This document shows, one piece after another, positions 255 to 30,470 of a DNA stretch of 35,097 nt. Made by a program: the position numbers and the translations under genes. Each line of letters begins with the position of its first letter. Position 1 is the stretch's first letter. Below the pieces are notes generated by a model, which ran no database searches, was not told the DNA's origin, and was given only the letters and a program-made list of their open reading frames with translations. The DNA is taken from the NCBI GenBank assembly GCA_009602725.1, contig WELB01000013.1, forward strand, positions 539,494 to 574,590, read 5' to 3'. The DNA comes from Spirogloea muscicola. Lineage: Eukaryota; Streptophyta; Zygnematophyceae; Spirogloeales; Spirogloeaceae.

Positions 255-440
255 CTTCGCCATCTAGTCTTTCAGATCTGAGGCTCCTCACTACGTAGCG
301 ACTGAGTGGGGCATCCTCCCCCAGTTCTGAGACAGCCCTTCATGGCCCCTTCGTAGTTTGGCCCCTTTGCCTTGTCAACCCTTTTTTGGGCTGGCTTCTC
401 ACAGCCCTTGCCTCCATTGAGAGAGCCACTTTCTCTTTGG
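255..440 (+). mobile_element. 5'-truncated LINE 3' end with hairpin unit
   Basis: Bases 262-302 encode SLSDLRLLT, the last codons of the LINE ORF seen intact at 22246-22821. The same downstream sequence follows: CTCCCCC, then a TTTGGCCCC / CCTTGTCAA block, then the hairpin unit GGGCTGGC...CAGCCC at 388-407 with CCATTGAGAGAGCC behind it. This order matches 30195-30330 and the reverse strand of 22110-22285. A 5'-truncated copy is what target-primed reverse transcription usually leaves. Confidence 0.65.
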
Positions 441-14114: not shown

Positions 14115-14616
14115 TGGCGGTCGTCTACACACCCGGCGCGCTGACCTGGTCGCCACCCCGCCGGGTCCCCGCATCGTCGCGGACGTCGTGACTACCGACT
14201 CCGTCGACTCCGCCAACCCCATCAAATCCGCGTCGGAAGCAGGTCACGCGGTCGGCAAGGCTGCCAGCGGCAAAGAGCGGAAGTGTGCAGATCACCCAGC
14301 CGACGATAAGTATGTGGCGCTGATGATGGACGTCCATGGGGCGTTCGGCAGTCGATCGCTGGACCTTCTGCAGCGGCTTGCACAAAGGGCCATCAATCGC
14401 CGGCAGGGACAGCAAGGTGAGCTGCCCGGCTTCAACGCCGCCTAGTCGCTTGCCCAGGTGTTCCGTATGCGGCTATCCATATCCTTCCAACGGTCCCAGG
14501 TCAAAGCAGTGCACTTGCGGGCAGGTCGTGCCATGGCTGCAGCCTTTGGGTCTTGTTGGGGTGCCTCTTTCTCAGCTGCAAGTTACTCCAAATTGCAGCT
14601 GCTGACTCGGGATTAA
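14115..14616 (+). mobile_element. LINE ORF C-terminal fragment, plus strand
   Basis: One plus frame reads HTRRADLVATPPGPRIVADV, then a spaced Lys/His block, YVALMMDVHGAFGS, LLQRLAQRAI, a TAG at 14443, and then FRMRLSISFQRS, HLRAGRAMAAAF and KLQLLTRD before TAA at 14614. This is the end of a non-LTR retrotransposon ORF: a nuclease-like domain commonly found downstream of reverse transcriptase in algal and protist elements. It aligns along its whole length with the minus-strand copy at 22246-22821. The reverse transcriptase part is missing (5'-truncated). Hairpin units follow downstream. Confidence 0.7.
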
Positions 14617-15320
14617 GCTCCCATTCGCTATAGTCTCTTCCAAAGCTGTGTGCATTTGGCGCCTTTCGGCCCTTTGGACCTTGTTCACTCATTTTGGGCT
14701 GGCCATTCACAGCCCCCGCCCCCTTTGGAAGAGCCGGGAAAGCTTTGGGATAGGGCTTTTGGCCCCTTCGGACCTTGACAATTCTCTTCGGGCTGGCTGT
14801 TCACAGCCCTCGCCCCCTTTGGAAGAGCCACTATCTTTTCATCACATCTAAGAAACAGCACTTTCAATGCAAGGCAATGGCTGTGAGAGGCCACCAAAGG
14901 AATGTACAAGGTCTGAAGGTCAAGTCGGTTGAAGATGTCGCGCTTTCTTTGAAAGATATTATTACTGACTCAAAGATCTATGTGATGATAACGATGATAT
15001 GCGTGAAGATAGCAGTGGACTTGCAGAAGGCAATGAGCATTTACATAGTACATTTAAATGTACATGTGTGGCGCGAGCTGTGCCGGCAGGAGCCCGCGGC
15101 AGCGTGCGGGTGGCGGCCTGGTCCCTAGGGCCCTCCGCCATGCGGATGTGACCTCGTGGGTGCTGCGGCTGCTCATCAGGGGTCACCAAGCACCCATCGA
15201 TGTAGCCAATTTCTTTCTTTCCTCGCAGAGCTGTGAGACGCCTTCAGACCTTGTTCAGAAAGCTTCTTTCTGGGCTGGCCTTTCGCAGCCCTTGCCCCCC
15301 TCTGAAGGAGCCAATGTTTG
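14617..15320 (+). repeat. LINE 3' tail with hairpin units
   Basis: Downstream of the LINE stop come hairpin units GGGCTGGC...CAGCCC at 14696-14715, 14790-14809 and 15272-15291, each preceded by a GGACCTTG(T/A)(T/C) block and followed by CCCC...GAGCC. A second LINE tail remnant (CTGCGGCTGCTCATCAGGGG, giving LRLLIRG) lies at about 15160-15180. Bases 14860-14920 resemble 8620-8690 in the promoter region of the gamma-CA-like gene. Confidence 0.6.
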
Positions 15321-15349
15321 CTGATGTTCTTGCCTGAGGCCTCCCGGAC

Positions 15350-15640
15350 CTTTCAGTGGGCAGGTTGTCCACAGCCCTTGCCCTTCTTGGACCCTATAGA
15401 GGCTGGCATTGTAAAGCCCCTCGCCCCCTTCGATAGAGCTGCTCCTTGGCCCGTGTCCGTTCCTCGTTGGGCTGGCTTTTGACAGCCATTGCCCCTTCAG
15501 AGGAGCATTATCTTCCTGCCCACGCACATGGCCGCTCTTGCCCTGTCACTCTCCGGCCCCTCCGGAACTTGCTCATTCCTTTTGGCCTGGCCTTATATAG
15601 CCATGGCCCCCTCTACAAGAGCTGCCTCTTTCACAGTCGC
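15350..15640 (+). repeat. Hairpin-unit array in duplicon 1
   Basis: Diverged hairpin units lie at about 15357, 15400, 15469 and 15584, spaced 45-115 bp apart. Each has a GGCTGG-like left arm, a CAGCC-like right arm, then a C-rich stretch and GAGC(A/T). The matching array in duplicon 2 is at 22840-23215. Bases 15640-16180 match 23225-23745 and hold no recognised gene. Confidence 0.75.
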
Positions 15641-16189
15641 CCGCTTTGAAGAACTTCTTCTTGTCGCTCATCACAGCTGCTTCTCGATGCAAAGCACGAA
15701 ATTAGTGGCGTGTGCCAGATGGAGCCACTGGCGCATACCTGCGCACGTCAGCGAGTGGGACTGGACCGGCGAAGTGGTGGCACACGAGCTCTGCCATTGC
15801 ATGTCGATGCCTATGTGGGGCCATTGACAATTGACAAGAACCATCATCTGTGACCCGCACAGTTGCCACCAAGACAGGGTATTTCAATTGAGCCCTTTGC
15901 ATACAGACAAGGTGGCTGCCATGATAGGGACCCATGACATTTTGCGACACTTACATTGCATGAGTTAGGAAGAGGTGCTTCAGCGTTGGCCATTCATGTC
16001 ACAGATGACGCTGTTCATATGTTTACACTCGTGGTGCTGAGCAGTGCTCCATGTAGGAGCCTAAATGGAGCTCAGGTCAGCTTGGAGTCATCAACTAGGC
16101 CGCCCATCCACAAGGGAGGCCACTTTGCGTCAGACTGTCTTTCAGCATGACTGTGTCTTGCAACAGGTCTGTTTAGCACAGGACTTCTG

Positions 16190-16745
16190 AGGCAGAGCGG
16201 CCGGTCGCCGCTTCGGTGTGCACTGGCCTTTCCGTCCTTCTTGCCAGGGAGACGCGCCTGGCCTTCGCTGGCTGGGCCGCGGAGTCGGCGATGTTACTAT
16301 GAAATAATTGGCGTCCAAAGCAGGCCTACGCTCTGAATACATTAGCATGGAATAACGCGATAGGACTCCGGTCCTTGTTTATTTGGTCTTTGGGACCGGA
16401 GTAATGATTGATAGGGACACTTGGGGGCATTCGGATCTCGTTGTCAGAGGTGAAGTTCTTGGATATAAAGGACGTGCTCCTGCAAAAGCATGTGTTAAGG
16501 ATGTTCTCATCTGTCAAGAAGGAAAGTTGGGTGCTCGAAATCGATCAGATACCGTCCTAGTCTCAACTATAAACGATGCCGACTGGGTATTGGCCGGATT
16601 GAATCTGATGACTCAGCCAGCACCTTATGAGAAATGAAGTTTTTTGAGTTTCCGGGGGAGTATGGTCGCAAGGCTGAAACTTACAAGAATTGACAGATGG
16701 GCACCACCAGGAGTGGAGCTTGCGGCTTAATTTGACTTAAGACGG

Positions 16746-16778
<33 letters not shown>

Positions 16779-17018
16779 TATGATTGAGAGCTCTTTTATA
16801 ATTCTATGGATGGTGGTGCATGGCCGTTCTTAATTGGTGGAGTCATTGTTTCTGCTTAATTCCGTTGACGAACGAGACCTCAGCATGATAACAAGTTGTA
16901 CGAAGGTTCTGCTTCGTGGCCAATTTCTTAGAGGGATTATCGGCGTCTAGCCGATGGAAGCTTGAGCAATAATAGGTCTGTGATGCCCTCAGAAGGTCTG
17001 GGCTGCAGGCGGCCTCTT
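16190..17018 (+). pseudogene. Partial 18S (SSU) rRNA pseudogene
   Basis: About 0.8 kb is colinear with the middle to 3' part of nuclear 18S rRNA. Recognisable in order are CGGTGTGCACTGGCC, GCCTACGCTCTGAATACATT, AGCATGGAATAACGCGATAG, GTCAGAGGTGAAGTTCTTGG, ATCAGATACCGTCCTAGTCT, GGCACCACCAGGAGTGGAGC, TTACCAGGTCCAGACATAGT and TCTGTGATGCCCTCAGA. Both ends are cut, and many substitutions and small indels fall in universally conserved positions, so it cannot be functional. It stops before the stretch that should follow GGGC(C/T)GCA. It lies inside duplicon 1; duplicon 2 lacks it at the same point (near 23760). ORFs inside it are spurious. Confidence 0.92.
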
Positions 17019-17261
17019 CATACCTCTTTAAGCCATTTAATTTTCAGTAACTCTTAAGCAACAGTGCATCCTCAGTCATAAGAATGTATATTAGCTTCTA
17101 CAGAGTGCAAGTTCTGCTCAAGTCGCAAATGCTTTACTCTTGTCTGCCAGGTTGGCTCGAGTAAGGAGGAAAAGCATGGAACGAAAGATAAGCAACAGAA
17201 GCTCAGAAAATATGTCCCTCTGTTCTGAACAGCTCTGAAGTGGTTGCTTAGTCGCTACTAG

Positions 17262-20200
17262 TCAGAAGAATGTGTCGATGAGGTCAATAGTAGCTTGGAT
17301 GCTGTCCTCCACAATATCAAATTTCAGTAAAGAGCCGGTGTAGTATGTTTTCCGGTAACCTTGTAGTGCATGGAGCTCGGTCTCAAAGCCTGCAGCTATG
17401 GCTGCTGAAGAGGCATGAGGAAAATAGTCCCATAATTGAAAGTCCTGCAAGAGTTCAATGCATCCAGATGAGCTTTTGGTAGTAGCAGAATTGACATCTT
17501 TGCTGTTTCCGTCACATAGTAAGTCAAATTAGTCAATTTGAGGCCCTTTTGAAATGTCAAAGACCACAGCGACCACTAGTTCCCTGCTTTCCCTAGTCGA
17601 TATTCTCATTATGTCGGTCTCAAGAAAGTCCTCTGAATGAGATCTTTGGTTCCTTGACTCAGACTCCTGCTGGATCTTACTTTGATGGCAGTAGGTCCCA
17701 GCTGTGCAAGGGTGGTGCCAGGGCCGAGCTTAGCGAGTGTGGCAAATGCAGTTGACTGAGCATTTGCACTACTCAAATCGCTCGTATTCCGATTCCAAGA
17801 GTACAAGGTTGTCAATCGTCTCCCCGCCTGTCATAGCCACCTGTGGAATGAGACCTGCTACTAATATCTGGTTGTCTACTCAGCTGCAGATAATTCATCA
17901 AGCAAGGAGTCTGGAGAGTTGAGCATATGCCTGGCACAGCTATTGATCCAGAATCTCAAATACCTTACCTACAACTTACCTACAATGACTTTTACGACAA
18001 GATCCCAGAATCCTGAGTCTGCTTAGCACGTAGTCGAACTGAAAAGTGACCTATTAGCAAGGGTTAATTCAGCTTCACCTCTGTTGTAATAGCGACAGGG
18101 CCGCCATTTCCCGGTGGCTCTGATAATGATGTACCGTTTAAGAGGGCATAGAGGGCAGATGGCTGGTTAAGTGCAATGCGCCCAGTAGCTCCAACATCAA
18201 TAAGGGTGGTTGAGTACCCGCTGTAAACAACCTTCAGTCATAAGATGGCAGCAAGTCAGATGCTAAGCTTCAAAAAGTCTCAGATAAGGTTTTCTGCCAC
18301 CATAAGAAGTGAGAGAGGGGGGGCACAGAAATGCTCCAAGCTCCACAGAAGGGCTCTGCTATGACCACATAGAAGAAGATGGTTATTGCGAGCCCCAGAA
18401 ATTGCATGTGTACCTGATTGAAGACAGCTGTTTCTTTGCTGTCAAGCCCCAGAAATTTAAGATTAGTCGCGATTTGGGGAAATGCTATGATAAGTTTTCT
18501 GCAGGTCATTGAGGACTGCGTTACCCTTCCCTTGAGGGTGCTTGTGAATTGTACAGTCGGGAGTCCTTTTTTAGGACGGGTGACAGCAATCGATGTGTTT
18601 AGATATATGGGGCCTTTGACAGTCCCTGCCCATTCCTGAATCAAAGACTGAAAACCTCCTGGCTCATTGATGAATGCTGGTCCACGAGGGTCCACCAAAA
18701 AGGATACAATGCGATCTTTCGTCATGTACCTGCCAACAAAATGCACAACTTTAACGTTCCGAAATTCTTGAAGAAGCCCCATCCACTTTGCAGAGGCAGC
18801 AAGGCTTGCTCAAGTCAGAACCAGTATCAACGCGCAGGACAAGTGAATTACCTTAGCACATAAAGGGTGGGGGTCTCCGTCAAAGAGCCATAACCGAAGG
18901 TTGTCACAATCTCAAGAAAAAATGGGAGCAAAGGTTGCAGCTTATTCTCCACAAGCCAAGCACCAAAGGGAAGTGCATAAGCTGCAGTACTGTTCTGGGC
19001 ATTGAAGCGCCAGTCAGACCACAAGGTGACATACTGCGCGAGAGCTTGCAGTACGGCTGCTGTAGTACTTGGTGTTGACAGTGATGCAGATTTGACCTTA
19101 AGTCCTGATCTCTCCAATGTAACAAGCAGATTGGGTGGTCACCAACATGAATAATGGCATTTCACAGCTAGAGCTCCTAGGCATATCTTAGGGGCTTAAG
19201 AGTTCGTGACCCTCAAGAGTCCTGCAAATGGCATTGAAGCTTGTAGAGCAGGCATGTTGTTGATTGCCAAGTTAGCTCGTCCACGTGTAATGTATATGCT
19301 CGGCAGTACAGACAGGCTGGTAAAGGTAAGTCAACAAGCACTTGTGAGTAGGAGAAGCTGCTAGACCTGTTTGAGGATCGAACAAGTACGAGGTAAAATT
19401 CTCGTAAGCAATCTTGAAGTTGAATCTCTGCACAAGCCTCAGCACATTAGTGTAGTCCGTGGTGAGGAGCAGGGCCCCTTCGTCGTAGTTGAGTCCATCA
19501 GTAACATATCTGCAGGAATATCATAAGGCCGGGCATGTCAGGCCGAATAAGGCTCACTGAAGGTTGCTGACTGCATTCTGCAGGGCAGAAAGCTGGTATC
19601 TTAGTCTTCCCCAATGTTTGCCATGCCCAGAACTTCGCGATATGTACAGGAGACTGCATATAGAACACTTGTCAATCAGTGCTCGGATGAATGACCTCCT
19701 CACTTGAAGCTTTTGGTACGTCCACCAACATAGGCATTCTTTTCAAAAATGGCGACCGAATGGCCTTTGCTCTCTAGTTCGGTGGCTGCTGCGATGCCCG
19801 AGGGACCTGCTCCAATGATGCAGATTCTTTTGGACAGTTTGGCTTGGGCTTGCACTGTGGAGGAATGCCATTACAACAGTCACACAGGTCTTACTGTGAG
19901 CGTCCTATTATGGCCAGAAACAAGATGCGACTGACAACGCTACATAGTCAAGGCCGGCAACCTTCAGAGAAGGGTATTACGCGTCTCTAGAGCAGTCCAA
20001 CTCCTTCCCTGGTCATTGAATGCTTGCGTACGATTAGCACCATGCCATTGTCACGCCGATATTTCATGAGGATGACAAGCAAGATGGACAGGCACCTTCA
20101 CGAGGGCTGACTTTCTCTCGCTATTCTGGGTTCCAGCTAGTGAAAGTATCCGGAACGATATACTAGCTGGACAGAGGAGCTTGGATGAAGCTGGTCAGGT

Positions 20201-20296
20201 CGTCGGATAAGCACCAGCAAGCGTGGAGAAGAGTAGAAGCAGGCAGGAGAACGTCGCCAGGCGGAGCGCCGAGCGGCAGGCCGGCCGGGCGATCAT
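17262..20296 (-). CDS. Secreted FAD-dependent oxidoreductase, copy B
   Basis: This is an intact paralogue of copy A in the flavin amine-oxidase / fatty-acid-isomerase-like superfamily. The exons are 20215-20296, 19704-19854, 19367-19509, 18852-19104, 18414-18729, 18079-18231, 17681-17827 and 17262-17444, giving 475 aa with no stop or frameshift. Residues 1-27 form a signal peptide (a Leu run after RSALRLATFS), so the protein should enter the secretory pathway. KRICIIGAGPSGIAAATELE and FEKNAYVGGRTKS form the FAD Rossmann site; GYRKTYYTGSLLKF is the C-terminal FAD-contact region. Six exons have exactly the same length as in A except 1, 3 and 5, which differ by whole codons. The start ATG is the one at the head of the signal peptide; a longer upstream frame exists but is repeat-derived. 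Substrate unknown. Confidence 0.9.
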
Positions 20297-20660
20297 CTTT
20301 GACCGAGAATGCTCCATCTGTGGCGCAAGTTGCACAGACAGCTGGCCGTCGCGCCTTTTGCAGTGCTCCCACGAGCGATCACCAGCAGAGCCGGGGCGGC
20401 TCTTGGCCCGCAGCAGCAATGGCGGGCTCCTACGGGTGCTGTGGCGTGGGCGACGGCGCGGCAGTGGCGGCGGCGGCAGGGGCGGCGGCGCCTGCGGCAG
20501 GAGGGAAAGCTAAGGGCAGGGCGAGGTCACGGCGGGCAGAGTGGCGCCTCGGCTGATCGCCGGTCGGTGATTGGCAACTCCGAGCGCCGGCTGGCGCCAC
20601 CAACTGTTGCCATAGTATACAGATAAGCAAAGGCCCTTCCAGTTAATAGTGGAATGTGCA
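20297..20660. other. 5' flank of copy B
   Basis: GC-rich sequence shared with the 5' flank of copy C (27078-27400). It probably holds the promoter and 5' UTR. GGC/GCG runs give long but compositionally odd ORFs on both strands, which I do not call as genes. Confidence 0.5.
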
Positions 20661-20735
20661 TCGAATGATGGAGGAGGGCCTGAGTGGCTAAGTACAAAGG
20701 CAGGCACATCAGGAAATCGAGAAGGCGCGCGGTGC
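20660..20735 (-). repeat. Dispersed repeat family 2 inserted in duplicon 1
   Basis: The minus strand carries GTGCCTGCCTTTGTACTTAG followed by CCACTCAGGCCCTCC, as in 21960-22040. It is absent from the equivalent place in duplicon 2 (about 27385), so it probably inserted after the duplication. Confidence 0.6.
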
Positions 20736-20940
20736 GCATGTTCTGAAAGGGTGGCCAATGTAAGCCCAAAACACCGCTCAGACAAAAGCTAGTGCGGAAC
20801 TTGGGGCTTCACAAATCCAGAAGCAGGCGGCGACAGGCCCAGTCCCACGGGACTGGTGCACGCGATTGTCGGGAGTCAATGGCGGTCAGCGGCTGGGCCC
20901 CCGATCGTTCCTCTTGTCTGGGCTTTGTCGGCCCTTCCCT

Positions 20941-21300
20941 CCGTCATTTGCCCCGTTGGAACCTTTTGTCAAAATTTTTCAGGCTGGCTTTTCACAGCCC
21001 TTGCCCTCATTGGGACTGCCACTTCTCTTCACAGCCCTCGCCACCTTAAGCGTGACGCCTTTCCGCTTTTCTTTCTTTCTCTCTCTCCGCCCCTATAATG
21101 AGCTGTTTGTTTCAGCCCAGCTGCTTCTACCTCTCCCGGTGGCTCGGTCCGCCCGTTTCTGTCGCGCCGCGCCAGGCCGCCGCCGGCCGGGAAGAGAAGT
21201 GGCGCTCTCCCGAAGGGGTGCAAGGGCTGTGAACAGCGAGCCCGGAAAAATGACAAGGTCCGAAGGGGCCAAAAGCGCTGTCTCATGGTAGGATAGACCA
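20941..21300. repeat. Hairpin units in both orientations
   Basis: A plus-strand unit lies at 20981-21000 (AGGCTGGC...CAGCCC with CATTGGGACTGCC behind). A minus-strand unit lies at about 21215-21270, with GACAAGGTCCGAAGGGGCC. Together they make a loose inverted pair of the LINE 3'-tail sequence. No gene is visible. Confidence 0.6.
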
Positions 21301-21499
21301 ACCTTAGCGCCGGTCTTAGTCGGTCAGTCGCTTATTGGCCTCGTCTTGGCCTCACATTGGCAACGAGTTTGACTCTGAGGCTCCATACAAAGCGCGACAC
21401 GTACCCCTCAGCCGCGACCGTCTGACCAAAGTGTGAATGGGCCATTAGTAACCACGAGTGAGGATTCGCAAATCCGAAAAGACTAGCAGCCGAAAGCAA

Positions 21500-21830
21500 T
21501 CCCCCTTAACGAATCCTGCCCGTCTCTGTCGCCCCCCCCGGAAGGGGCCGGGCGCAACGGGGACGAATGCGGACAGCCGCTGTCCCGCCATGTGGCAAGG
21601 CTCGGCGCCCCGGGACGCTTGGTCCGCCCAACCATCCCGGGCCCGCCCCGCTCCCCGCCCCCGGTGTCGGCTGGCGGACGGCGTCAGATGCTCCGAGGCG
21701 CCCCCCCGTGCACATCCGGCTTGACGTGGCGCACGTGTGCCGCCCCCCTGGGGTCAGGGCCAAGTAACCGCCGCCGCCGCCACCGCCAGCGGGCATCAAT
21801 GTGCTAGGGTTTATTTTGACACCACAGCAG
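21500..21830 (+). repeat. GC-rich dispersed module (family 3), copy 1
   Basis: It shares ordered blocks with 28050-28460 and 30475-30870: GGCCGGGCGC, ACTTGGTCCGCC-like, TCGGCTGGCGGACGGCGTCA, GTGCACATCCGGCTTGACGT and GGCGCACGTG. The frame giving VHIRLD(L/V)AH is conserved in all three, but indels break longer frames. The origin is unknown; it may be an inner part of the same LINE or of another element. Confidence 0.65.
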
Positions 21831-21959
21831 GAGTCGCGCAGGCTCATTCTTTGCACCAGAAAGCTGGTCCGGCCTCAGCTGGTGGCACAAGAGCTTGTCA
21901 TTTGCCGTCCGGTATTCGGGCATCACTTAGCGACCTCCTTATGTGCTGCTCGTGGTTAC

Positions 21960-22040
21960 TGAACGAGTCAGCTTAGCAGCAGGTGACGTACATCTGTCAA
22001 CGTGCTTGCCTCTGTACTTGACCACTCAGGCCCTCCATCA
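21960..22040 (+). repeat. Dispersed repeat family 2, best copy
   Basis: The plus strand reads GTCAGCTTAGCAGCAGGTGA, then CGTGCTTGCCTCTGTACTTG and CCACTCAGGCCCTCCATC. The reading frame SLAAGDVHLSTCLPLYL is shared with 13737-13810 (-), and its end with 20660-20735 (-) and 195-254 (+). No protein family is recognised. Confidence 0.65.
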
Positions 22041-22099
22041 TTCAGTACACACTCCACTTCCTTTGGCAGAGCCACTGTTCTGCTGGTATGCTTGCCTGA

Positions 22100-22245
22100 G
22101 GAAGAAGTGGCTCTCCCAGTGGGGGCAAGGGCTGTGAGAAGCCAGCCCGAAAAGAATTGACAAGGTTCGAAGGGGCCAAACTACGAGCTAAGCAGCGACT
22201 GCGGGGCCTGAAGAGGCTATGGCAGAACGGGGGAGGATGGACCAC
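22100..22245 (-). repeat. LINE 3' tail with hairpin unit
   Basis: This is the sequence downstream of the stop codon of the minus-strand LINE ORF. It contains the hairpin unit at 22130-22149 (minus strand GGGCTGGCTTCTCACAGCCC). About 133 bp (22102-22234) recur at 28853-28986 with only two visible differences. Confidence 0.75.
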
Positions 22246-22824
22246 TTAGTAGTTACGAGTGAGGAGCCTCACATCCGACAGACTAGCTGCTGGTAAATTA
22301 TCCCCCTGACGAAAGCCGGAGGCCGCAGCGAGAGCACGGCCAGCACGCAGATGCAAGGCGTGGGCCATGGACCGCTGGAGGGAGACGGACAAGCGCATAC
22401 GATACACCTGAGCCCACGAGCCAGCGGCGTTGAAGTCAGCCGGCTCACCGCGCCTGCGGGACACAGCGCGCCGTGCAAGCCTGGCCAACAGGTCGAGCCA
22501 GTGGGATCCGAGAGCCCCATGCACGTCCACAGCCAGGGGGACGAACTCGTCGGCAGCCGGGTGGTCGGCGTGTTTGGCCGCCTTGCTGCGAGCGGCCTTT
22601 GCCGCAGCGTGGCCAGCCCGCGAGGCAGAAAGCCCCGGGTTGGAGCGGTCGACCACATCAGTGGTGACCACGTCGGCAATGATGCGCCCGCCACCGCCCG
22701 TCGTGGACGCCACCAGGTCGACGCGGCGCGTGTGGAGTCCGTCGGCCCTCTGGAGGATGGGCATGACAGAAGTATTCTCCATCGCAACTGTGTATCCGGC
22801 CTCCTGAAAGATGCCGAACATGCC
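22246..22824 (-). mobile_element. LINE ORF C-terminal fragment, intact 191 codons
   Basis: This is the best copy of the LINE C-terminal domain. It contains RRVDLVAS, GRIIADVVTTDVVDRSNPG, a KAARSKAAKHADHPA stretch, FVPLAVDVHGALGSHWLDLL, ARLARRAV, VYRMRLSVSLQRS, HLRAGRALAAASGF and LSDVRLLTRNY before the stop. Family knowledge: such a domain, with an RxSVxLQR segment, lies behind reverse transcriptase in LINE-type ORFs of algae, protists and some animals and may be a restriction-like nuclease; that function is inference. The frame has no stop, which suggests a fairly young insertion. It is cut at its 5' side where duplicon 2 begins. The reverse transcriptase itself is not in the window. Confidence 0.72.
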
Positions 22825-22839
22825 TGAGGCCTACCGACC

Positions 22840-23215
22840 TTTCAGTGGGCAGGTATTTCACAGCCCTTACCCTTCTTGGACCCTCCTGTATTTTTCGCCC
22901 TTTGGACCCCGTCACTTCCTTCCTGGGCTGGCTTTCAACAGTCCCTCGCCCCTTCTGGAAGAGGTTCCATTTATTGTAGGCTTGCTTTCCACAGCTCTCG
23001 ACCCTTTGACAGAGCTGCTCCTTTTCTTGGCCCGTTTCCGTTCCTCGTTGGGCTGGCTTTCAGCAGCCATTGCCCCCTTGAAAGGAGCATCACCTTCCTG
23101 CCCACGCACCTGGCCGCTCTTGCCCTGCCACTCGCCGGCCCCTCAGATATTGCTCAACCTTTTGGCCTGGCCTCGTACAGCCATCGCCCCCTCTACAAGA
23201 GCTGCCTCTTGCACA
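22840..23215 (+). repeat. Hairpin-unit array in duplicon 2
   Basis: Five units start at about 22850, 22923, 22976, 23048 and 23163. Each has a (G)GGCTGGCTTTC-like left arm, a CAGCC or CAGCT right arm, then CCC and GAGC. They are spaced irregularly, 50-115 bp apart, and are diverged from one another. Bases 23225-24015 are the shared 3' flank of the oxidoreductase gene and hold no other recognised gene. Confidence 0.75.
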
Positions 23216-24015
23216 GTCGCCGGGTTTGAAGAACTTCTGGTCGCTCATCACAGGCTGCCTCTCGGTGCAAAGCACGATCTTGGCGGCACGTCAGATGAAA
23301 CCACCGGCGCATACCTGCGCACATCAGCCAACGGGACTGGACCAGCGAGGTGGTGGCACACAGGCTCTGCCATTGCATGTTCAGTGCCTATGGTGGGCCA
23401 CTGACAATCGACAAGACCCATCATCCTGCTGAGACTTGCAAATTGCCACGAAGACAAGGTGTCTAAACTGAGCACATGCATACAGACAAGGTGGCTGCCA
23501 AGACTGGGACCCATGACATTTTACGACATTCACATTGCATGACTTAGGATAGAGGTGCTTCAGCATCGGCCAGTACATCACAGACTACGCTGTCAATAAC
23601 TATACACTAATTGTGCTGAGCAGTGGTCCGTGGAGGAGCCTAGAAGGTTCTTAGGTCAGCTTGGAGTCATCCATAAGGCCGCCCAGCCACAAGGGATGCA
23701 CCTTCGCATCGATCTATCTATCTTCAGCTTAAATGTGTCTTGCAACGGATCTGTTATGCACCACTGGCAATGTGTACCTCTTGATGCTATTTGACTTACA
23801 AGAATTTCTAAAGCAAAAGTAGATCCTCGGTATAGATGTATATATTTAGCTTCCAAAAATGCCAGGTCTGCTCAAGTCGCGAATGCTTCACTCTCGTCTG
23901 ACAGGTTGGTTTGATTAAGGAAGAGAAAGAAAAGAGACAAAAATAGGGGCTCAGATGATCTGTCCCTCAATCCTGAATAGCTCTGAAATGGTTGCCTAGT
24001 CAAAAACGTTCCCAG

Positions 24016-27000
24016 TCAAAAAAATGTGTCGATGAGGTCAATGGTAGCTTGGATGCTGTCCTCCACATCGTCAAATTTGAGTAATGAGCCAGTGTAGTAA
24101 GTCTTCCGGTATCCTTGTAGTGAATGGAGCTTGGCCTCAAAGCCTGCAGCTATGGCTGCTGAAGAGGCATGAGGGAAATAGTCCCATATTTGGAAGTCCT
24201 GCAAGAGTATATAGTACACCCAAATGACCTTTTTGTTGTAGCAAGATTGACAACTTTGCTACTTCCGTAACATACTAACTAAACTTAGTATCCATGAAAC
24301 ACTTCTGAGATGTCGAAGACCACTTCGACACCAATTCCCTGGTTTCTCTGGTCTATTATATGTCGGTTTCTGAAGAATACTCTAAATGTGAGAATAAATA
24401 TTTGGTTCCTTAACTCTGACTTCTGCTGGATCTTACTTTGATGGCAGTTGGGCCCAGCTGTCCAAGGGTGGTGCCAGGGCCGAGCTTAGCAAGTGTGGCG
24501 AATGCTGTTGACTGAGCATTTGCACTACTTAATTCTCTTGTGTTCCGATTCCAAGAGTACAAGGTTGTCAATCGTCTCCCGGCCTGTCATAGCCAGCTAG
24601 CTGAGGAATGAGACCTGCTACAGATATCTGGTTGTCTACTCAGCTGCAAATAAGACATCAAGCAAGGTATCTGGAGAGTTGAGCATGCGCCTCATTAAGC
24701 AATTGATCCAGGAAATCAAACACTTACACACGATGACCGTTTGAAAAGAGTCCAGAATAAAGAGTCTGCTTTGCACATAGTCAAATTGATCAGTGTCCTA
24801 TCTAGCAAGGAGATTTATTCAGCTTCACCTTAGTTGTAATGGCAACAGGGCCGCCATTTCCCGGTAGCTCTGAAATCGATGTACGATTTAAGATGCCATA
24901 AAGGGCAGATGGCTGGTCAAGTGCAATGCGCCCTGTAGCTCCAACATCAATAAGGGTGGTGGAGTACCCGCTGTAAACAACCTTCAGTCAGAAGATGGCA
25001 GCAGGTCAGATGCTAAGCTTCAAAAAGTCTCAGATAAGGCTTTCTGCCACCAGAACAAGCGAGCAGGAGAGGGGGGTATACAGGAGTGCTACAAGCTCCA
25101 CGAAAGGGCTCTGCTATGAGCACATAGGAGAAGATGGTCTTTGCAATTGCAAGCCCAGAAATTGCAGGAGCGCAAGTACCTGATTGAAGACAGCTGTTTC
25201 TTTGCTGTCAAGCCCCAGGAATCCAAGATTACTCGCTATTTGGGGAAATGCCACGATAAGTTTCCTGCATGTCGTTGAGGACTGCGTCATTTTACCCTTG
25301 AGGGTGCTTGTGAAGTGTACAGTTGGAAGTCCTTCCTTGGGACGGTGGACAGCAATCGATGTGTTTAGCTAAATTGGGCCTTTGACAGTCCCTGCCCATT
25401 TCTGAATCAGAGATTGAAAACCTCCTGGCTCATCGATAATTGCTGGTTGACGAAGGTCCACCAACAAGGATACAATGCGATCTTTCGTCACGTACCTGTC
25501 ACCAAAATATCCCATTTATTGAATTTTGATATTCTTCAAGAAGCCCCATCCACTTTGCAGTAGCAGCCAGGCTTGCTTACATTAGAATCAGTATCAAAAT
25601 AGGCAGGAAGGACTAGTGAACTCACCTCAGCACGTAAAGAGTGGGGGTCTCCATCAAAGAGCCATACCCGAAGGTTGTCACAATCTCAAGAAAGAATGGG
25701 AGCAAAGGTTGCAGCTTCTTTTCCACAAGCCAAGCACCAAAGGGTAGTGCATAAGCTGCAGTACTATTCTGGGCATTGAAGCGCCAGTCAGACCACAAGG
25801 TGACATACTGCGCGAGAGCTTGCAACACGGCTGCTGTAGTACTTGGTGTTGACAGGGATGCAGATTTGACCTTAAGTCCTGATCCCTCCAATGCAACAAG
25901 CAGATTGGGTGGTCATCAACATGAATCATGACATTTCACAGCTAGGAGCTCCTAGGCATATCTTAGGGGCTTAAGAGTTCGTGACCCTCAAGAGTCCTGC
26001 AAAAGGCATTGAAGCTTGTAGAGCAGGCATGTTGTAGATTGCCAAGTTAGCTCGTCCATGTATAATAAGATGCGCTCGGCAGTACAGACAGGCTGGTAAA
26101 GGTATGTCAACAAGCACCAGTGAGTAGGAGAAGCTGCTAGACCTGTTTGAGGATCGAAAAAGTACGAGGTAAAATTCTCGTAACCAATCTTGAAGTTGAA
26201 TTTCTGCACAAGCCTCAGCACATTAGTGTAGTCCGTGGTGAGGAGCACGGCCCCTTCGTCGTAGTTGAGTCCATCCATAGAATATCTGCAGAGGACTCAC
26301 AAGGCCCTGGTCATGTCAGGCCAAATTCAGCTCGCTGAAGATTTATGAGTGCGTTCTGCAGTGCAGAAAGCTGGTAAATTAGTCTTCCCCAAACTCTGCC
26401 AGGCCCAGAACTTCGCCACATGTACAAACGCTTGCATGTAGCACACTTAGTCAACACATGTTCCGCATCAGTGACCTCCTCACCTGAAGCTTTTGGTACG
26501 TCCACCAACGTAGGCATTCTTCTCAAAATGGCTACCGAGTAGCCTTTGCTCTCCAGTTCGGTGGCTGCTGCGATGCCCGAGGGACCTGCTCCGATTATGC
26601 AGACTCTCTTGGACAGCTTGGCTTGGGCTTGCACTGTACAGGAATGCCATCACAACAGCCATGAAGGTCCTACTGTTAGCATCCTACCACGGCCAGAAGT
26701 AGATGCGACTGAATACGCTTCATGAAGAAGGGCCGGCAACCTTCAGAGAAAGGTACTATGCCTCTCTGGAACAGTCCAATCCCTTCTCTCTTGATTGACT
26801 GCATGTGTATGCGTAGCACCATGCCAATGGCATGCGGATACCTTTCTTGAGGATGACAAGCAAGATGGACATGCACAATATCCGAAGGCTGACACTCTCT
26901 CGTTGTTCAAGGGTCCAGCTAAATGTAGTATAGAGCACGCCATACTAGTGGGACAGAGGACTTGGCTGAAGCTGGTCAGGTCTTCGGAAGAGCACCAGCA

Positions 27001-27077
27001 AGCATGAAGAACAGTACAAGCAGGTAGGAGAACGTCGCCAGGCGGAGCGCTGAGCGGCAGGCCTGCCGAGAGATCAT
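24016..27077 (-). pseudogene. FAD-dependent oxidoreductase pseudogene, copy C
   Basis: This is a near-copy of B with the same eight exons: 26996-27077, 26484-26633, 26143-26285, 25626-25878, 25180-25495, 24829-24981, 24437-24583 and 24016-24198. Exon 2 is 150 nt instead of 151: a T is missing from a T run (near 26525), so the frame breaks just after the Rossmann motif. Exon 5 has an independent in-frame TAG (near 25370, after TVKGPI) where B has a Tyr codon. All splice sites and the other exon lengths are kept, so the decay is recent. The lost T is in a homopolymer and could be a sequencing error, but the TAG cannot be explained that way. If translated, the product would be short and inactive. 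Confidence 0.9.
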
Positions 27078-27640
27078 CTTTGACCGGGAATGCTTCATTT
27101 CCGGTACCGCAAGTTGCACAGACGGCTGGTCGTCACGCCTTCCGCAGTGCTCCCTCGAGCGATCAACAGCAGAGCTTGGGCGGGGGCAGCGACAGCGGGG
27201 CCCTTATGGGACTCAGTAGCGTAGGCGACGGCGGCGGCAGAGGCGGCGGAGGCGGCCGCGCCAGCGGCAGGGAGAGTGGGGCCTCCACCTTTTTGCGGCT
27301 CAGCTCGCGGGCTGCGCGGGGTGATCGGCAACTCCGAGCGCCGGCTGGCGCCACCAGCTGGTGCACGAGTACGTTGATGGGAAATGGCCCGTCCAGAAAG
27401 AGAGGAGGCGCGCGGTGCGCACGAAAGGCTGGCCACTTCAAGCCAACACACCGTTCAGGCAAAAGCTTCTGCAAATTTGGGGCTTCATCAATCAGAACCA
27501 GAAGCAGGCGGTCCCACGGGACTGCTTGAGTGGACGGTCGTTGGAAGTCGGGCTGCCGGCGGTTGGGTCCGCGCTCCGAATGGCCCGTCCTAAATGTTCC
27601 TGTTTGTTGGGCTTGGTTATCTCATCACAGTCTCTTGAGC
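27078..27640. other. 5' flank of copy C
   Basis: GC-rich sequence homologous to 20297-20940 and probably the promoter region before pseudogenisation. Long frames on both strands are driven by GGC repeats and are not called as genes. Confidence 0.45.
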
Positions 27641-27870
27641 CCTGCTTCAGCACAGCTGCTTCTTCTTCTTCCTTTTCCTGGTCCCTTCGGACTATGTTTA
27701 GATTCTTTTTTCTGGGCTGCCTCTTCCAGCCACCGCCCTCTCCTGGAAGCGTCTTTCCTTCTTCTACTTCTACTGCTTCTGCTTCTACTGTTCTGGGCGA
27801 GCCCTTTCTTCTACTGTTGGGAGAGCCACTTCTTCTTTCTTCTACTGCTTCTACTTTTCTCACAGCCACC
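27640..27870 (+). repeat. CTT/CTA-rich pyrimidine tract
   Basis: The plus strand is almost all TTC, TTCT, TACTTC and GCTTCT triplets, with a diverged hairpin unit (GGGCTGCCTCTTCCAGCC) near 27715. It gives a Ser/Leu-rich 415-codon ORF that has no family resemblance. Confidence 0.8.
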
Positions 27871-28049
27871 AGTCAAATTTGGAAGCGCTATTCTTTCCTT
27901 CACTAGCTTTTTCCTGAACAATGCAGTGTCCTCGATCGGCCATTCTTTCCTCTTAGCCGCAACTGCACGCCATCCCTTTCCATCCTGTCAATTCTTTTCG
28001 GGCTGGCTTCTCACAGCCCTTGCCCCCATTGGGAGAGCCACTTCTTTCC
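27871..28049 (+). repeat. Hairpin unit with LINE-tail context
   Basis: The unit at 28000-28019 (GGGCTGGCTTCTCACAGCCC) is followed by TTGCCCCCATTGGGAGAGCC and preceded by TGTCAATTCTTTTC. It is the closest to the apparent consensus in the window. Confidence 0.75.
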
Positions 28050-28460
28050 ATTCCGGTGGCTCAGCCGGACAGACCGTCTTTGTTAATTTGGAAGCGATAT
28101 TCCTCTGTCGCTCTGCACCTGGCCGACAGCCCGGAAAGGCCGGGCGCGACGGAGACGGACTGGGACAGCCGCGGACCCGCCAGGGGGCACGACAGAGCGC
28201 TCCGGACACTTGGTCCGCCCGACCATCCGGGCACCGGTACCGCTCGCGATGTCGGCCGGCGGACGGCATCAGGGGCTCAAGGGCAGCCAGCCCTCGCGTA
28301 CACATCCGGCTTGACCTGGCGCACGGCTTGACCTGGCGCACGTGCGCCGGTCCCAAGCCTTTGCCACGCCCCACACGCCGCCGCTGCCGCCTGGCTGCCT
28401 TCAGTGCACAGTTTGTCTATGGGCCCACAGACGCCCCCCAAGCATTAAGAGCGCCGCCCC
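28050..28460 (+). repeat. GC-rich dispersed module (family 3), copy 2
   Basis: It shares block order with 21500-21830 and 30475-30870. It has an internal 17-bp direct duplication (CTTGACCTGGCGCACG) at 28310-28342 not seen in the others. The right end (ACAGACGCC...AAGAGCG) is shared with copy 3 only. Confidence 0.65.
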
Positions 28461-28539
28461 TATTCCGCCCTATTCCCTGGAGAGCACCATGCTTTTGGCC
28501 TCCCTTTGTTTTCATGCGCACCGTGCGCCTTTCTATTTT

Positions 28540-29040
28540 GCGGCTGCTGATTCGGGGTTACAAAGCTCCCAGTCGCTGTAGTCTCTTGCATAGCCGTGTC
28601 AATTTGGCGGCCCTTTGGACCTTCTTCATACTTTTGGGGCTGGCCTTTCACAGCCCTCGCCCCCATTGGGAGAGCCACTTTCACAGCCTCTGCCTTCTCG
28701 TGGAAGCGCTTTTTGATATGGGCTGGGCATTTACAGCCACTGTATTATGTTGGAAGAGCTATTTCGCACCCGGGTAATGCCCGTCCAATTTCCGCAACGG
28801 GGCTCCTCGAACGAGGCGTGTCATCTGGTTGGCGTCCCCTGGGAGATAAAGAGAAGAAGTGGCTCTTCCAATGGGGGCAAGGGCTGTGAGAAGCCAGCCC
28901 GAAAAGAATTGACAAGGTTCGAAGGGGCCAAACTACGAGCTAAGCAGCGACTGCGGGGCCTGAAGAGGCTATGGCAGAACGGGGGATAAAGGGCTCGCCC
29001 ATTGAGGATAGGGGCTAGAAAAGCCAGCCCAAAAAGGATG
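28540..29040. repeat. LINE tails with hairpin units in both orientations
   Basis: A plus-strand LINE end (CGGCTGCTGATTCGGGGTTA, as at 14595) is followed by units near 28637 and 28720. A minus-strand tail at 28853-28986 is nearly identical to 22102-22234, and a further minus unit is near 29015. Opposed tails suggest nested or repeated insertion. Confidence 0.65.
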
Positions 29041-29199
29041 AACAAAGTACGAGAAGGGGGCCAGGGGAAGCGCTAAGAAAGACAAAGCACAAAAAGAAAC
29101 AAAGCAGCTACGAAGCACTCAGTAACCCCTGCTAAGCAGCCTTGGGTCAGAGAAGCTGGGCTCCTGAGAGCGGGGAGGTGGCAAGCGGCTCCTCATGCA

Positions 29200-29660
29200 C
29201 GTCGTCCTCACTGACAGCCTCCGAAAGAAGGGCCCCCATAATCTCTAAGACCGGCTACGCTGTGAAGGTGGCCGAAGAAAAGGATACATGGTTACAACCC
29301 ACCCTGCTGGCGATACCATATACCCCCTGGCCACGGACATCCACGGGTACCATGTGGATTAGTGGTCCTCGTTGCTCTCGCTGCTGGCCTCTCAAGCTGA
29401 CCAGAGGCCCTGTCATGCGCGAGGGCGTCGACTGCTAGATGGCGTGACGTGATATAGCACGACAGCGCCGCGAAGAGGGTGCAGCATTTCCTGGAGGCTC
29501 GGTGCCTTTGGTTCTGGTGTCCTGCCACCGCATGCGTCTATCTATGTCTCTGCAGCGGTCCAAGCGCCCTTGCTTTGTAATGCCGAGCCGGTCGCGCCCT
29601 TGCAGCAGCCTCTGGCTTGCGCAGCGGGGTTGCTCTTCCTCTTCTCACCTCATCTGACTT
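29200..29660 (+). mobile_element. Degenerate LINE C-terminal domain, plus strand
   Basis: Pieces in shifting frames match the LINE domain in order: TGYAVKVAEE (like AGYTVAMEN at the intact copy's start), then PLATDIHGYHVD and SLLSLLASQADQRPC (like PLAVDVHGALG...LLARLARRA), then LAAASGLRSG near 29605 (like LAAASGFRQG). Several frameshifts and stops mark it as an old relic. Confidence 0.5.
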
Positions 29661-29754
29661 CCTACTGCTGACACAGGGGGGGTACTCCCTTATCAGCCAT
29701 GTTGGCCACAGCAATCATTCTTGAGGAGGGCCGGAGTAGCCCTCACCCTGCAGT

Positions 29755-29970
29755 GTGCTTGCTATACATCACTCTAAACACTTCTGGAGTGCGCACCTTT
29801 ATCGTCTTGTATTTCCAATATTCATCCAGTCTGTATTATAGCTTGTAATAGAGAACAGTTAGCGAAGCGCCTATTGGCCCATAATCTGAAAATCCTCCTG
29901 ATCTGTGAACTTCTGGTATTGCCACCGTCGACCGTGTTCAATAGCTTCAGCTGCTTCTCTTTTCCTGTGA
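29755..29970 (+). repeat. Direct repeat (about 215 bp), left copy
   Basis: The shared blocks with 31088-31305 are GCAGTG..CTT, CACTCTAAACACTTCTG, TTTATCGTCTTG, ATCCAGT.TGTAT, AGCGAAGCGCCT, TGATCTGT.AACT and ACCGTCGAC.GTGTTCAA. The two copies lie in the same orientation about 1.33 kb apart. No TG...CA ends or primer-binding site are evident, so calling them LTRs is not supported. Confidence 0.75.
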
Positions 29971-30151
29971 CGAACCCACCCCTATCCACACAGTTAGGGT
30001 TTGTTACGTCCTCGTTGGGGCACTGGACTGGTCTTCAGCTTGACTCTGTCTTGCAAGAGAATTGTTATGCACCACTGCCCATGTGTACCTCTTGATGCCG
30101 TCTGACTAATCAAGATCTATTGAGCACAGTAGATTCCTAGTCATAAGAATC
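29971..30151 (+). repeat. Fragment shared with the duplicon 3' flank
   Basis: Bases 30050-30145 match 23740-23835 (TGTTATGCACCACTG, ATGTGTACCTCTTGATGC). This is the same stretch that the 18S fragment interrupts in duplicon 1, so the site lies in a dispersed repeat rather than in unique DNA. Confidence 0.6.
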
Positions 30152-30470
30152 AGCCTCTGGCTTTCGCCAGCGGGATTGTTTTCCGGCAGCTAGTCTGTCG
30201 GATTTGAGGCTCCTCACTCGTAGCTACTGAGTGGTCCAACCTCCACCCGTTCTGCCGTAGCGCTTTAGGCCCTTCCTTCATTTGGCCCCTTCGGACCTTT
30301 GTCAATTCTTTTCTGGGCTCGGTTTTCACAGCCCTTGCCCCAATTGAGGGAGCCGCTTCTTCTCACAAGAAGATAAAAGGATATACCAGAAGATGGGCGA
30401 TGGCTGCGGCCAGCCCAGATAATAGACATTCTCACGGCCATTGACTCACATTGGAAGACCTATGTCCTTT
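30152..30470 (+). mobile_element. 5'-truncated LINE 3' end
   Basis: The copy begins inside the ORF. Bases 30153-30237 encode ASGFRQRDCFPAASLSDLRL and LTRSY then TGA, matching the C-terminus of the intact copy nearly residue for residue. It continues into the 3' tail with a hairpin unit near 30315 followed by CCCCAATTGAGGGAGCC. The sharp 5' start inside the ORF is the mark of target-primed reverse transcription. Confidence 0.75.

Follow-up and report, generated by a model that had tools for sequence, protein, structure and literature searches.

A stretch of 35,097 nucleotides (nt) from Spirogloea muscicola (assembly GCA_009602725.1, contig WELB01000013.1, positions 539,494 to 574,590 of the forward strand; hereafter the window) raises the question of why one short hairpin unit recurs in it so many times, singly and in small arrays, and what ties it to the ends of long interspersed nuclear elements (LINEs). 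The original prediction, made from the letters alone, had counted about 28 such units and proposed a LINE tail with several stem-loops, with solo units as partners resembling short interspersed nuclear elements (SINEs). The analysis presented here followed the unit through the genome (153 Mb in 471 contigs, in which the window is G000:C13:539494-574590). The ~80-nt unit is the 3' terminus of an abundant LINE group, comprising families A to E, and copies of this group abut the 3' ends of its own members far above chance, the hairpin loop being a favoured spot. Very probably, the arrays result from the nesting of mostly truncated copies in older ends, with the loop favoured and tail pairing behind the choice of site; in this view, hairpins accumulate as fresh insertions, most of them truncated, tend to enter the ends of earlier copies. 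Three sources of arrays were observed, namely LINEs landing in LINE 3' ends, head-to-tail joints within family A and, in the window, an old segmental duplication.

The hairpin unit and the LINE 3' end

The stem pattern GGGCTG-N8-CAGCCC, with at most two mismatches, matches the window 22 times, where 100 dinucleotide shuffles average 3.87 matches and never exceed 9. An nhmmer profile of the ~80-nt unit, built from eight window copies, gives 29 matches above the inclusion line, of which 23 lie inside 14617-30360, where the copies had been predicted, and one ends at 30364; the predicted recurrence is borne out by both counts. A broader unit profile has 25 matches in the window. The units point both ways, 20 of the 29 matches being on the + strand and 9 on the - strand. 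The stretch GGGAGAGCC, which had been singled out as part of the unit, on its own hardly exceeds chance (21 matches with at most one mismatch, where 12.5 are expected on average and 3 of 100 shuffles reach 21), and Tandem Repeats Finder did not report an array of the hairpin unit in the window. The units and the LINE pieces that accompany them are as follows.

258..437, + strand: LINE 3' end with hairpin unit at 357-437 (66.2 bits), outside 14617-30360; 78% identity to 30184-30358
14125..14615, + strand: C-terminal fragment of a LINE open reading frame (ORF), directly upstream of the first array; TAA stop at 14613-14615; 64.7% DNA identity to the - strand LINE ORF at 22737-22320
14662..14745, + strand: hairpin unit, 3' end of the LINE ending at 14615 (profile, 72.4 bits)
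14756..14839, + strand: second hairpin unit, head-to-tail, ~94 nt past the first (profile, 77.5 bits)
15237..15625, + strand: array of five older units (15237, 15356, 15393, 15463, 15555; profile); 15331-15395 and 15426 onward paralogous to 22821 onward
20945..21025, + strand: solo hairpin unit (63.7 bits)
21198..21275, - strand: inverted hairpin unit (49.9 bits)
22093..22829, - strand: young family-A LINE copy, 5'-truncated (~22102-22820), with hairpin unit at ~22102-22180; 99.2% to the family-A reference; 9-bp duplication
22845..23205, + strand: array of five older units (profile), counterpart by segmental duplication of the array near 15356-15625
27679..28761, + strand: units at 27679, 27970, 28604 and 28717 (profile)
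28852..29052, - strand: two inverted units, the first (28853-28986) a family-A copy truncated at ~+15, with the 7-bp duplication CTTTATC
30184..30364, + strand: LINE 3' end, stop codon near 30228, hairpin unit at 30280-30364

Units had been placed directly behind LINE stop codons at five points; this holds at 14616, 22246 (- strand), 30237 and ~258-300, and fails at 28560, where the stop codon itself is lost. Beyond the window, a protein search with the LINE C-terminus listed at least 150 close copies, and a first look gave 20,818 candidates as a rough figure. The ten best copies are near-identical from the stop codon through ~66 nt of 3' untranslated region (UTR), the unit and the tail ACTTCTTCT(TCT), after which their flanks diverge. 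The hairpin starts 97 nt past the stop-codon position in all ten of ten young family-A copies, among them L012, in which the stop codon has mutated to CAA, and the layout of family A therefore reads stop codon, 97 nt, hairpin, ~30 nt and a short (CTT)n tail. In five more copies of family A and its relatives (L015, L017, L152, L153, L155) this distance is 76-98 nt, a sixth row having been excluded because its start point lay past the stop.

When 360 hairpin matches, counted on both strands, were clustered by the sequence that follows them, they fell into A, B+E and C; intact elements separate B from E, and D was read from one locus (L008). Three loci (L001, L005, L074) were excluded as repeats both from this clustering and from the stem-pairing test below, and L090 from the clustering too. 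The families share the core TTGTYCATTCTTTT-GGGCTGG..CAGCC and differ in the sequence past it. The hairpin is present in families A to E; family F is more distant (60% identity in the reverse transcriptase, RT), and inspection of its 3' end by eye revealed no GGGCTGG hairpin. The predicted tie between hairpin and LINE 3' end is thus confirmed, and is common to several LINE families. The tail designed with several stem-loops is not supported, since the intact 3' ends that were read have one hairpin each, and extra ones arose through nested insertion or at head-to-tail joints.

The original prediction had proposed compensatory stem changes as a check; the stem shows no covariation. The 279 ungapped copies comprise 89 distinct hairpins, in which 86.9% of stem cells are paired, as against 87.4% with the 3' arms shuffled; 80 of the 81 changed stem pairs are one-sided (10 of which still pair), and one is a double change that still pairs. 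This test is low in power, because most copies are probably dead and drifting, and the core GGCTG/CAGCC hardly varies between families. Compared with shuffles, the fold energy is better in families B (z -2.6) and E (z -3.5), and hardly so in A, C and D (-0.3, -1.3 and -0.7). The folds also hint at a second stem around the hairpin (read by eye as TCCAT/ATGGG in B and E and as TCAAT/ATTGG in A); with a register shift among the five families, it is not counted as evidence.

Many units stand without any ORF, as they would if solo units were SINEs that borrow a LINE 3' end. The 5' ends of 95 family-A copies, however, lie anywhere between -999 and +126, counted from the stop codon (6 of the 95 being reference edges), no shared foreign, non-LINE head was seen among them, and a lone tRNA-Val is the only tRNA-like match in the window, so that the SINE explanation is highly improbable. 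Truncation at the 5' end is frequent, in some copies leaving hardly anything beyond the hairpin unit; the family-A solo units, proposed as SINE-like partners, are LINE copies of this kind, cut short at varying 5' positions.

Target duplications of 7-13 bp identify some of the insertions as true integrations. They reach at least 7 bp in 39 of 111 chains, compared with 6.5% of 3000 mismatched flank pairs, and at least 8 bp in 32 of 111, compared with 3.3%. Clear cases are CTATTTAGA and CTTTCGGAAA (both in L003), TTCCTGCATA (L002), CTATCCTCAAT (L084, L140), CTACTCAGACC (L013) and CTTTATGTATTG (L117). L001, L005, L074 and L090, which repeat other loci, were excluded from this count and from the list of 5' ends (an earlier duplication list had excluded L001, L074 and L090), and with 39 of 111, target duplications are seen in a minority of the insertions, not in most of them as first stated. 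In L003, three family-A insertions lie within ~700 nt (1103-1824), the first two with the related duplications CTATTTAGA and TCTATTTAGAG.

Landing sites in LINE 3' ends

Where do new copies land? LINE sequence lies just past the tail in 35 of 45 ORF-bearing family-A copies (78%), compared with 417 of 2774 random positions (15%) and with 26 of 70 positions (37%) taken 200-1100 nt farther on at ten of the loci; the criterion for LINE-derived sequence was a match, by unit profile, protein or DNA, to family A, B, E or F. With a family-A-only library, the corresponding counts are 30/45, 389/2774 and 25/70 (Fisher p 0.001 for junctions against neighbourhood). The 45 copies are what remained of 50 ORF-bearing loci, taken in order of match quality from a protein search, once 5 without a complete 3' end had been dropped; the random positions, which overlap, come from 16 random 4-kb loci on 15 contigs, of which L027 was wholly and several were partly unread. 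In a second set of 38 loci (7 without a focal chain; 30 usable 3' flanks and 27 usable 5' flanks), the 5' flanks were LINE-derived in 18 of 27. These samples are not random, as the genome DNA search favours copies with the query's flank and another search scored 40 of 1345 candidates.

Within the LINE 3' end, the loop stands out. The 3'-arm motif of the loop is found at the junction in 13 of 65 copies, compared with 0.9% of random places (10 start positions allowed at junctions, 7 at random places). Genome-wide, 25 exact joints connect a family-A tail to a family-C unit, 17 of which lie in the loop, the other 8 preceding the hairpin by a few nt, within the 31-nt stretch tested. Because the two families differ, slippage on one RNA is excluded for these joints, and a jump between the RNAs of two families could produce them. 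A half-hairpin stands on each side of the insert, together with a duplication, in L088 (TTTCAAAGC), L104 (TCTCACAGCC) and L012 (CTGTGAGA, in inverse orientation); L092 has half-hairpins on both sides with no clear duplication, and in L087 the insertion lies in an inverted 3' UTR.

The window holds an example with its own natural empty site. The duplication TGCCTGAGG, at 22093-22101 and 22821-22829, brackets the young family-A copy that sits inside an array, and the paralogous site near 15331-15345 is without the young copy (alignment score 135, against a maximum of 48 in 100 shuffles). The paralogy is due to a tandem segmental duplication of ~5 kb (15331-20855 and 22821-27524, blocks 76-91% identical) that carries unit arrays; the blocks 15331-15395, 15426-16179 and 17021-20642 correspond to 22821-22884, 23002-23761 and 23775-27396 at 82-91% identity. 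The arrays at 15356-15625 and 22845-23205 are therefore not independent, being one array that was copied.

Long elements of two other families also lie behind LINE ends. L152, a long family-E element (G000:C66:680300-685200), begins just behind a complete family-E 3' end, from which it appears that even long copies may favour LINE tails. L154, of family F (G000:C45:736700-741900, with an open frame of 1453 aa), stands directly behind a family-E 3' end, and has a GGGCGAGCCCTTTCTTC stretch like that of family E.

Nesting of this kind might also arise without any targeting, if LINEs gather where genes are sparse and insert into one another at random. The units are indeed clustered, 14 units at a stricter cut being confined to 5 of the 16 random loci, and the sequence 200-1100 nt from the LINEs is, as given above, already 37% LINE. 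The junction level, however, exceeds this local one (35/45 against 26/70), and the target sites are uneven, family C having been hit in the loop and just before the hairpin only, within the 31 nt tested. Chance encounter in a shared compartment is therefore improbable as the main source of the nesting.

Palindromic or cruciform targets were considered as a general rule and rejected: over 30 target sites, the mean inverted-repeat score is 9.1, compared with 8.3 at random. A score of at least 12 is reached by 9 of the 30 sites and by 14% of random ones, a weak difference, and the palindromes noticed by eye at some sites outside the hairpin have no numerical support.

Head-to-tail joints within family A

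Exact searches for a family-A tail joined to successive anchors of the family-A 3' end show where the following copy begins. The joint falls exactly at +36 (TCTTC^AGGCCCC) in 56 of 62 matches, with two more that have one letter changed (by eye), and in the hairpin loop at +108 (CTTCT^CACAGCCC) in 58 of 67, a few with extra letters (by eye); of the other nine loop-anchor matches, five lie upstream of the whole hairpin and four have other letters in between. Elsewhere, joints are few: six in +41-71, none from about -20 to +10, and five in the stretch that includes +77, one of them at its CTTC. The anchor behind the loop has 62 matches, many of which are the loop-anchor places again, the others lying between loop and tail. 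Reversed-pattern controls gave no match in any of the seven joint searches, the A-to-C search included. CTTC occurs in the family-A 3' end at +36, +77 and +108, and in the tail; most joints thus fall on one of two internal motifs whose letters agree with the (CTT)n tail, and they are in 3-nt register with it. As the CTTC at +77 is hardly used, pairing alone does not explain the choice of site; it would seem that five shared letters are needed, or that something else marks +36 and the loop.

Joined copies are spaced ~112-115 nt or ~37-42 nt apart, which overlaps the irregular 45-115 bp predicted for the arrays; window units 14662 and 14756 are 94 nt apart. Three successive joints with a 112-nt period, that is, short tandem arrays of LINE 3' ends, occur at C245:138908-139160 and C382:13985-14237 (both G000).

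R2 and other LINE RTs are capable of template jumping, which gives end-to-end joints of elements within one integration. The arrays could then be mainly concatemers made in one event, the RT jumping from an internal CUUC to the (CUU)n tail of the next RNA, and a taste for LINE targets would be unneeded. Several observations are consistent with this: the concentration of joints at +36 and the loop in register with the tail, the period-112 triplets, and a dimer in L117 that lies inside a single 12-bp duplication. Moreover, 14 of 20 loop-joint loci examined (from the 58) have no half-hairpin directly on the left (by eye), and so look like joints inside one insertion. For this reason, loop joints were dropped as proof of nested loop targeting, and targeting is argued here from junction counts, non-self families, both flanks and duplications. 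On the other hand, the remaining 6 of 20 (L095, L101, L102, L103, L104, L109) do carry a left half-hairpin; inverse-orientation insertions and 5' half-hairpins with duplications (L012, L088, L104; L087) are not readily explained by jumping; and joints to the own family are seen by eye in only ~5 of 45 ORF copies (L009, L044, L049, L052, L066), while 35 of 45 abut LINE sequence. That concatemers account for most of the arrays is possible, if doubtful. R2-type jumping, moreover, leaves from the 5' end of the RNA, whereas here the jump would leave from two internal motifs matching the tail.

Encoded protein, proposed mechanism and related elements

Three loci (L152, L153 and L154, of families E, B and F) have open frames of 1338, 1386 and 1453 aa with Pfam RT matches at E 8e-16, 2e-13 and 1e-14, and across five ORFs the RT domain PF00078 is found at E 7e-18 to 2e-13. 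C2H2 zinc fingers in the L152 and L153 ORFs are weak, below the Pfam cut-offs. An apurinic endonuclease (APE) domain gave no Pfam match up to E 10 in the three whole ORFs (E, B, F); the family-A protein is readable from its zinc finger onward, as the preceding DNA is masked in L015. A profile of three family-A rows has R2 as its closest solved RT in the PDB (E 3e-6, the match covering the RT only). Behind the RT, the four families read by eye (A, B, E, F) have C-x-C-x12-H-x3-C and R-x-D-L/V-V...DVV, which we take to be the CCHC motif and the restriction-like endonuclease (RLE; PD-(D/E)xK) of R2-like LINEs. The protein thus appears to have the order zinc finger, RT, CCHC, RLE. With an RT domain, 5' truncation and target duplications, the group belongs to the non-long-terminal-repeat retrotransposons, that is, to the LINEs.

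The mechanism that would link these observations is as follows. The endonuclease would nick a pyrimidine-rich site, and the nicked target strand, ending in ...AGAAG, would pair with the CUUCU tail of the RNA, which would make CTTCT-like sites in LINE ends good landing sites. Copying would then start and often stop early. A growing complementary DNA ending in GAAG might re-pair either with a second RNA, at its CUU tail, or with the tail of a LINE already in place, and the resulting units would lie ~112 or ~40 nt apart; a role for the zinc fingers of the protein is conceivable. Since LINE 3' ends hold pyrimidine-rich sites, the loop among them, the group would feed on itself. The hairpin may also be the signal by which the RT picks its own RNA. 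Carried to its end, this would give the 20-nt hairpin three jobs, as the RNA signal of the RT, as the preferred DNA landing pad, where the CTTCT of the loop would pair with the RNA tail, and as the jump point for concatemers, in a self-homing retrotransposon that builds its own safe harbour; we put this forward as a speculative and rather unlikely extension.

Several points weigh against nesting guided by tail pairing. In the second set, the 3' flanks (mostly ~70 nt) were LINE in 14 of 30 rather than 78% (random positions at that length, 326/2774), and since the neighbourhood is itself LINE-rich, the nesting may in part reflect the region. Some targets are of another kind, as L123 sits in sequence resembling the RT of a long-terminal-repeat retrotransposon (by eye). 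As many as 72 of the 111 chains have no 7-bp duplication, and several of the 39 duplication strings are tail-like (CTT) and may be chance. The neglected CTTC at +77 and the failure of palindromes as a general rule count on the same side. Joint counts need exact matches, and a jump from RNA to RNA, also between two families, is not separable in them from insertion into a resident copy. Finally, the endonuclease looks like the restriction-like type on a motif read by eye; Pfam gave no match over the putative endonuclease region behind the RT, and the single-sequence AlphaFold2 model of the C-terminal domain is poor (pLDDT 45).

UnaL2 is a stringent-type LINE with a 3' stem-loop. The present group resembles the stringent LINEs in having a short repeated tail and one stem-loop at a fixed 3' place (97 nt past the stop-codon position in 10 of 10 young family-A copies; stem-loop present in families A to E); it differs from them in that its stem is without covariation and its loop doubles as a landing site, recognition by the protein being putative. 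A conserved stem-loop near the 3' end with a short repeated tail is likewise found in zebrafish LINEs (PMC4176376). With the RLE LINEs (R2, R4, NeSL, HERO, Utopia, CRE), the group appears to share a similar domain order, R2 as the closest solved RT and a liking for repeated targets, although the favoured target here is the 3' end of the group's own members. For Utopia, the available text of PMC4640811 gives the order N-terminal zinc finger, RT, zinc finger, RLE.

The arrangement had been thought undescribed, which is not so for self-nesting itself. As described in the available parts of PMC8226300, Zepp of green algae nests in existing copies and forms tandem arrays mostly of 3' ends, through frequent 5' truncation; those parts treat Zepp as an L1 element and align the endonuclease and RT domains of L1s, and clusters of nested Zepp also appear in the available parts of PMC3446292. 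Zepp and ZeppL, as far as these sources go, resemble the present group in nested insertion into their own copies (here, 35 of 45 junctions in LINE sequence). In Coccomyxa, Zepp forms one cluster per chromosome, probably centromeric, whereas here many small arrays lie on many contigs. Zepp is of L1 type, while here no APE was found in the ORFs of three relatives, the C-terminus is restriction-like as read by eye, and family A is partly readable. What would be new is therefore, we suggest, LINEs of RLE appearance with a landing site mapped inside their own 3' hairpin. A literature search turned up neither a LINE of this type that targets itself nor LINEs that land in hairpin loops; most subscription papers lay outside that search, which makes it weak evidence of novelty. 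Zepp is an L1-type self-nesting LINE tied to algal telomeres and centromeres, and self-nesting in LINEs of RLE appearance suggests that a LINE can serve as its own safe harbour, with target choice linked to the match between tail and loop. The two-site rule of the head-to-tail joints would, in addition, offer a clean readout of RT jumping in vivo.

Other features of the window are of a different nature. A diverged 3' part of an 18S rRNA gene lies at 16180-17010 (Rfam SSU_rRNA_eukarya, E 1.4e-128); the corresponding place in the other copy of the segmental duplication, between 23761 and 23775, has no such stretch, which suggests that a piece of rRNA was inserted here. Exons of glycosyl hydrolase family 31, perhaps an alpha-glucosidase, are found at 4184-6191 on the - strand (PF01055, E 1.9e-23; PF21365, E 3e-9). 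The tRNA-Val (anticodon TAC) was located by ARAGORN at 1603-1675, with an Rfam tRNA match at the same place.

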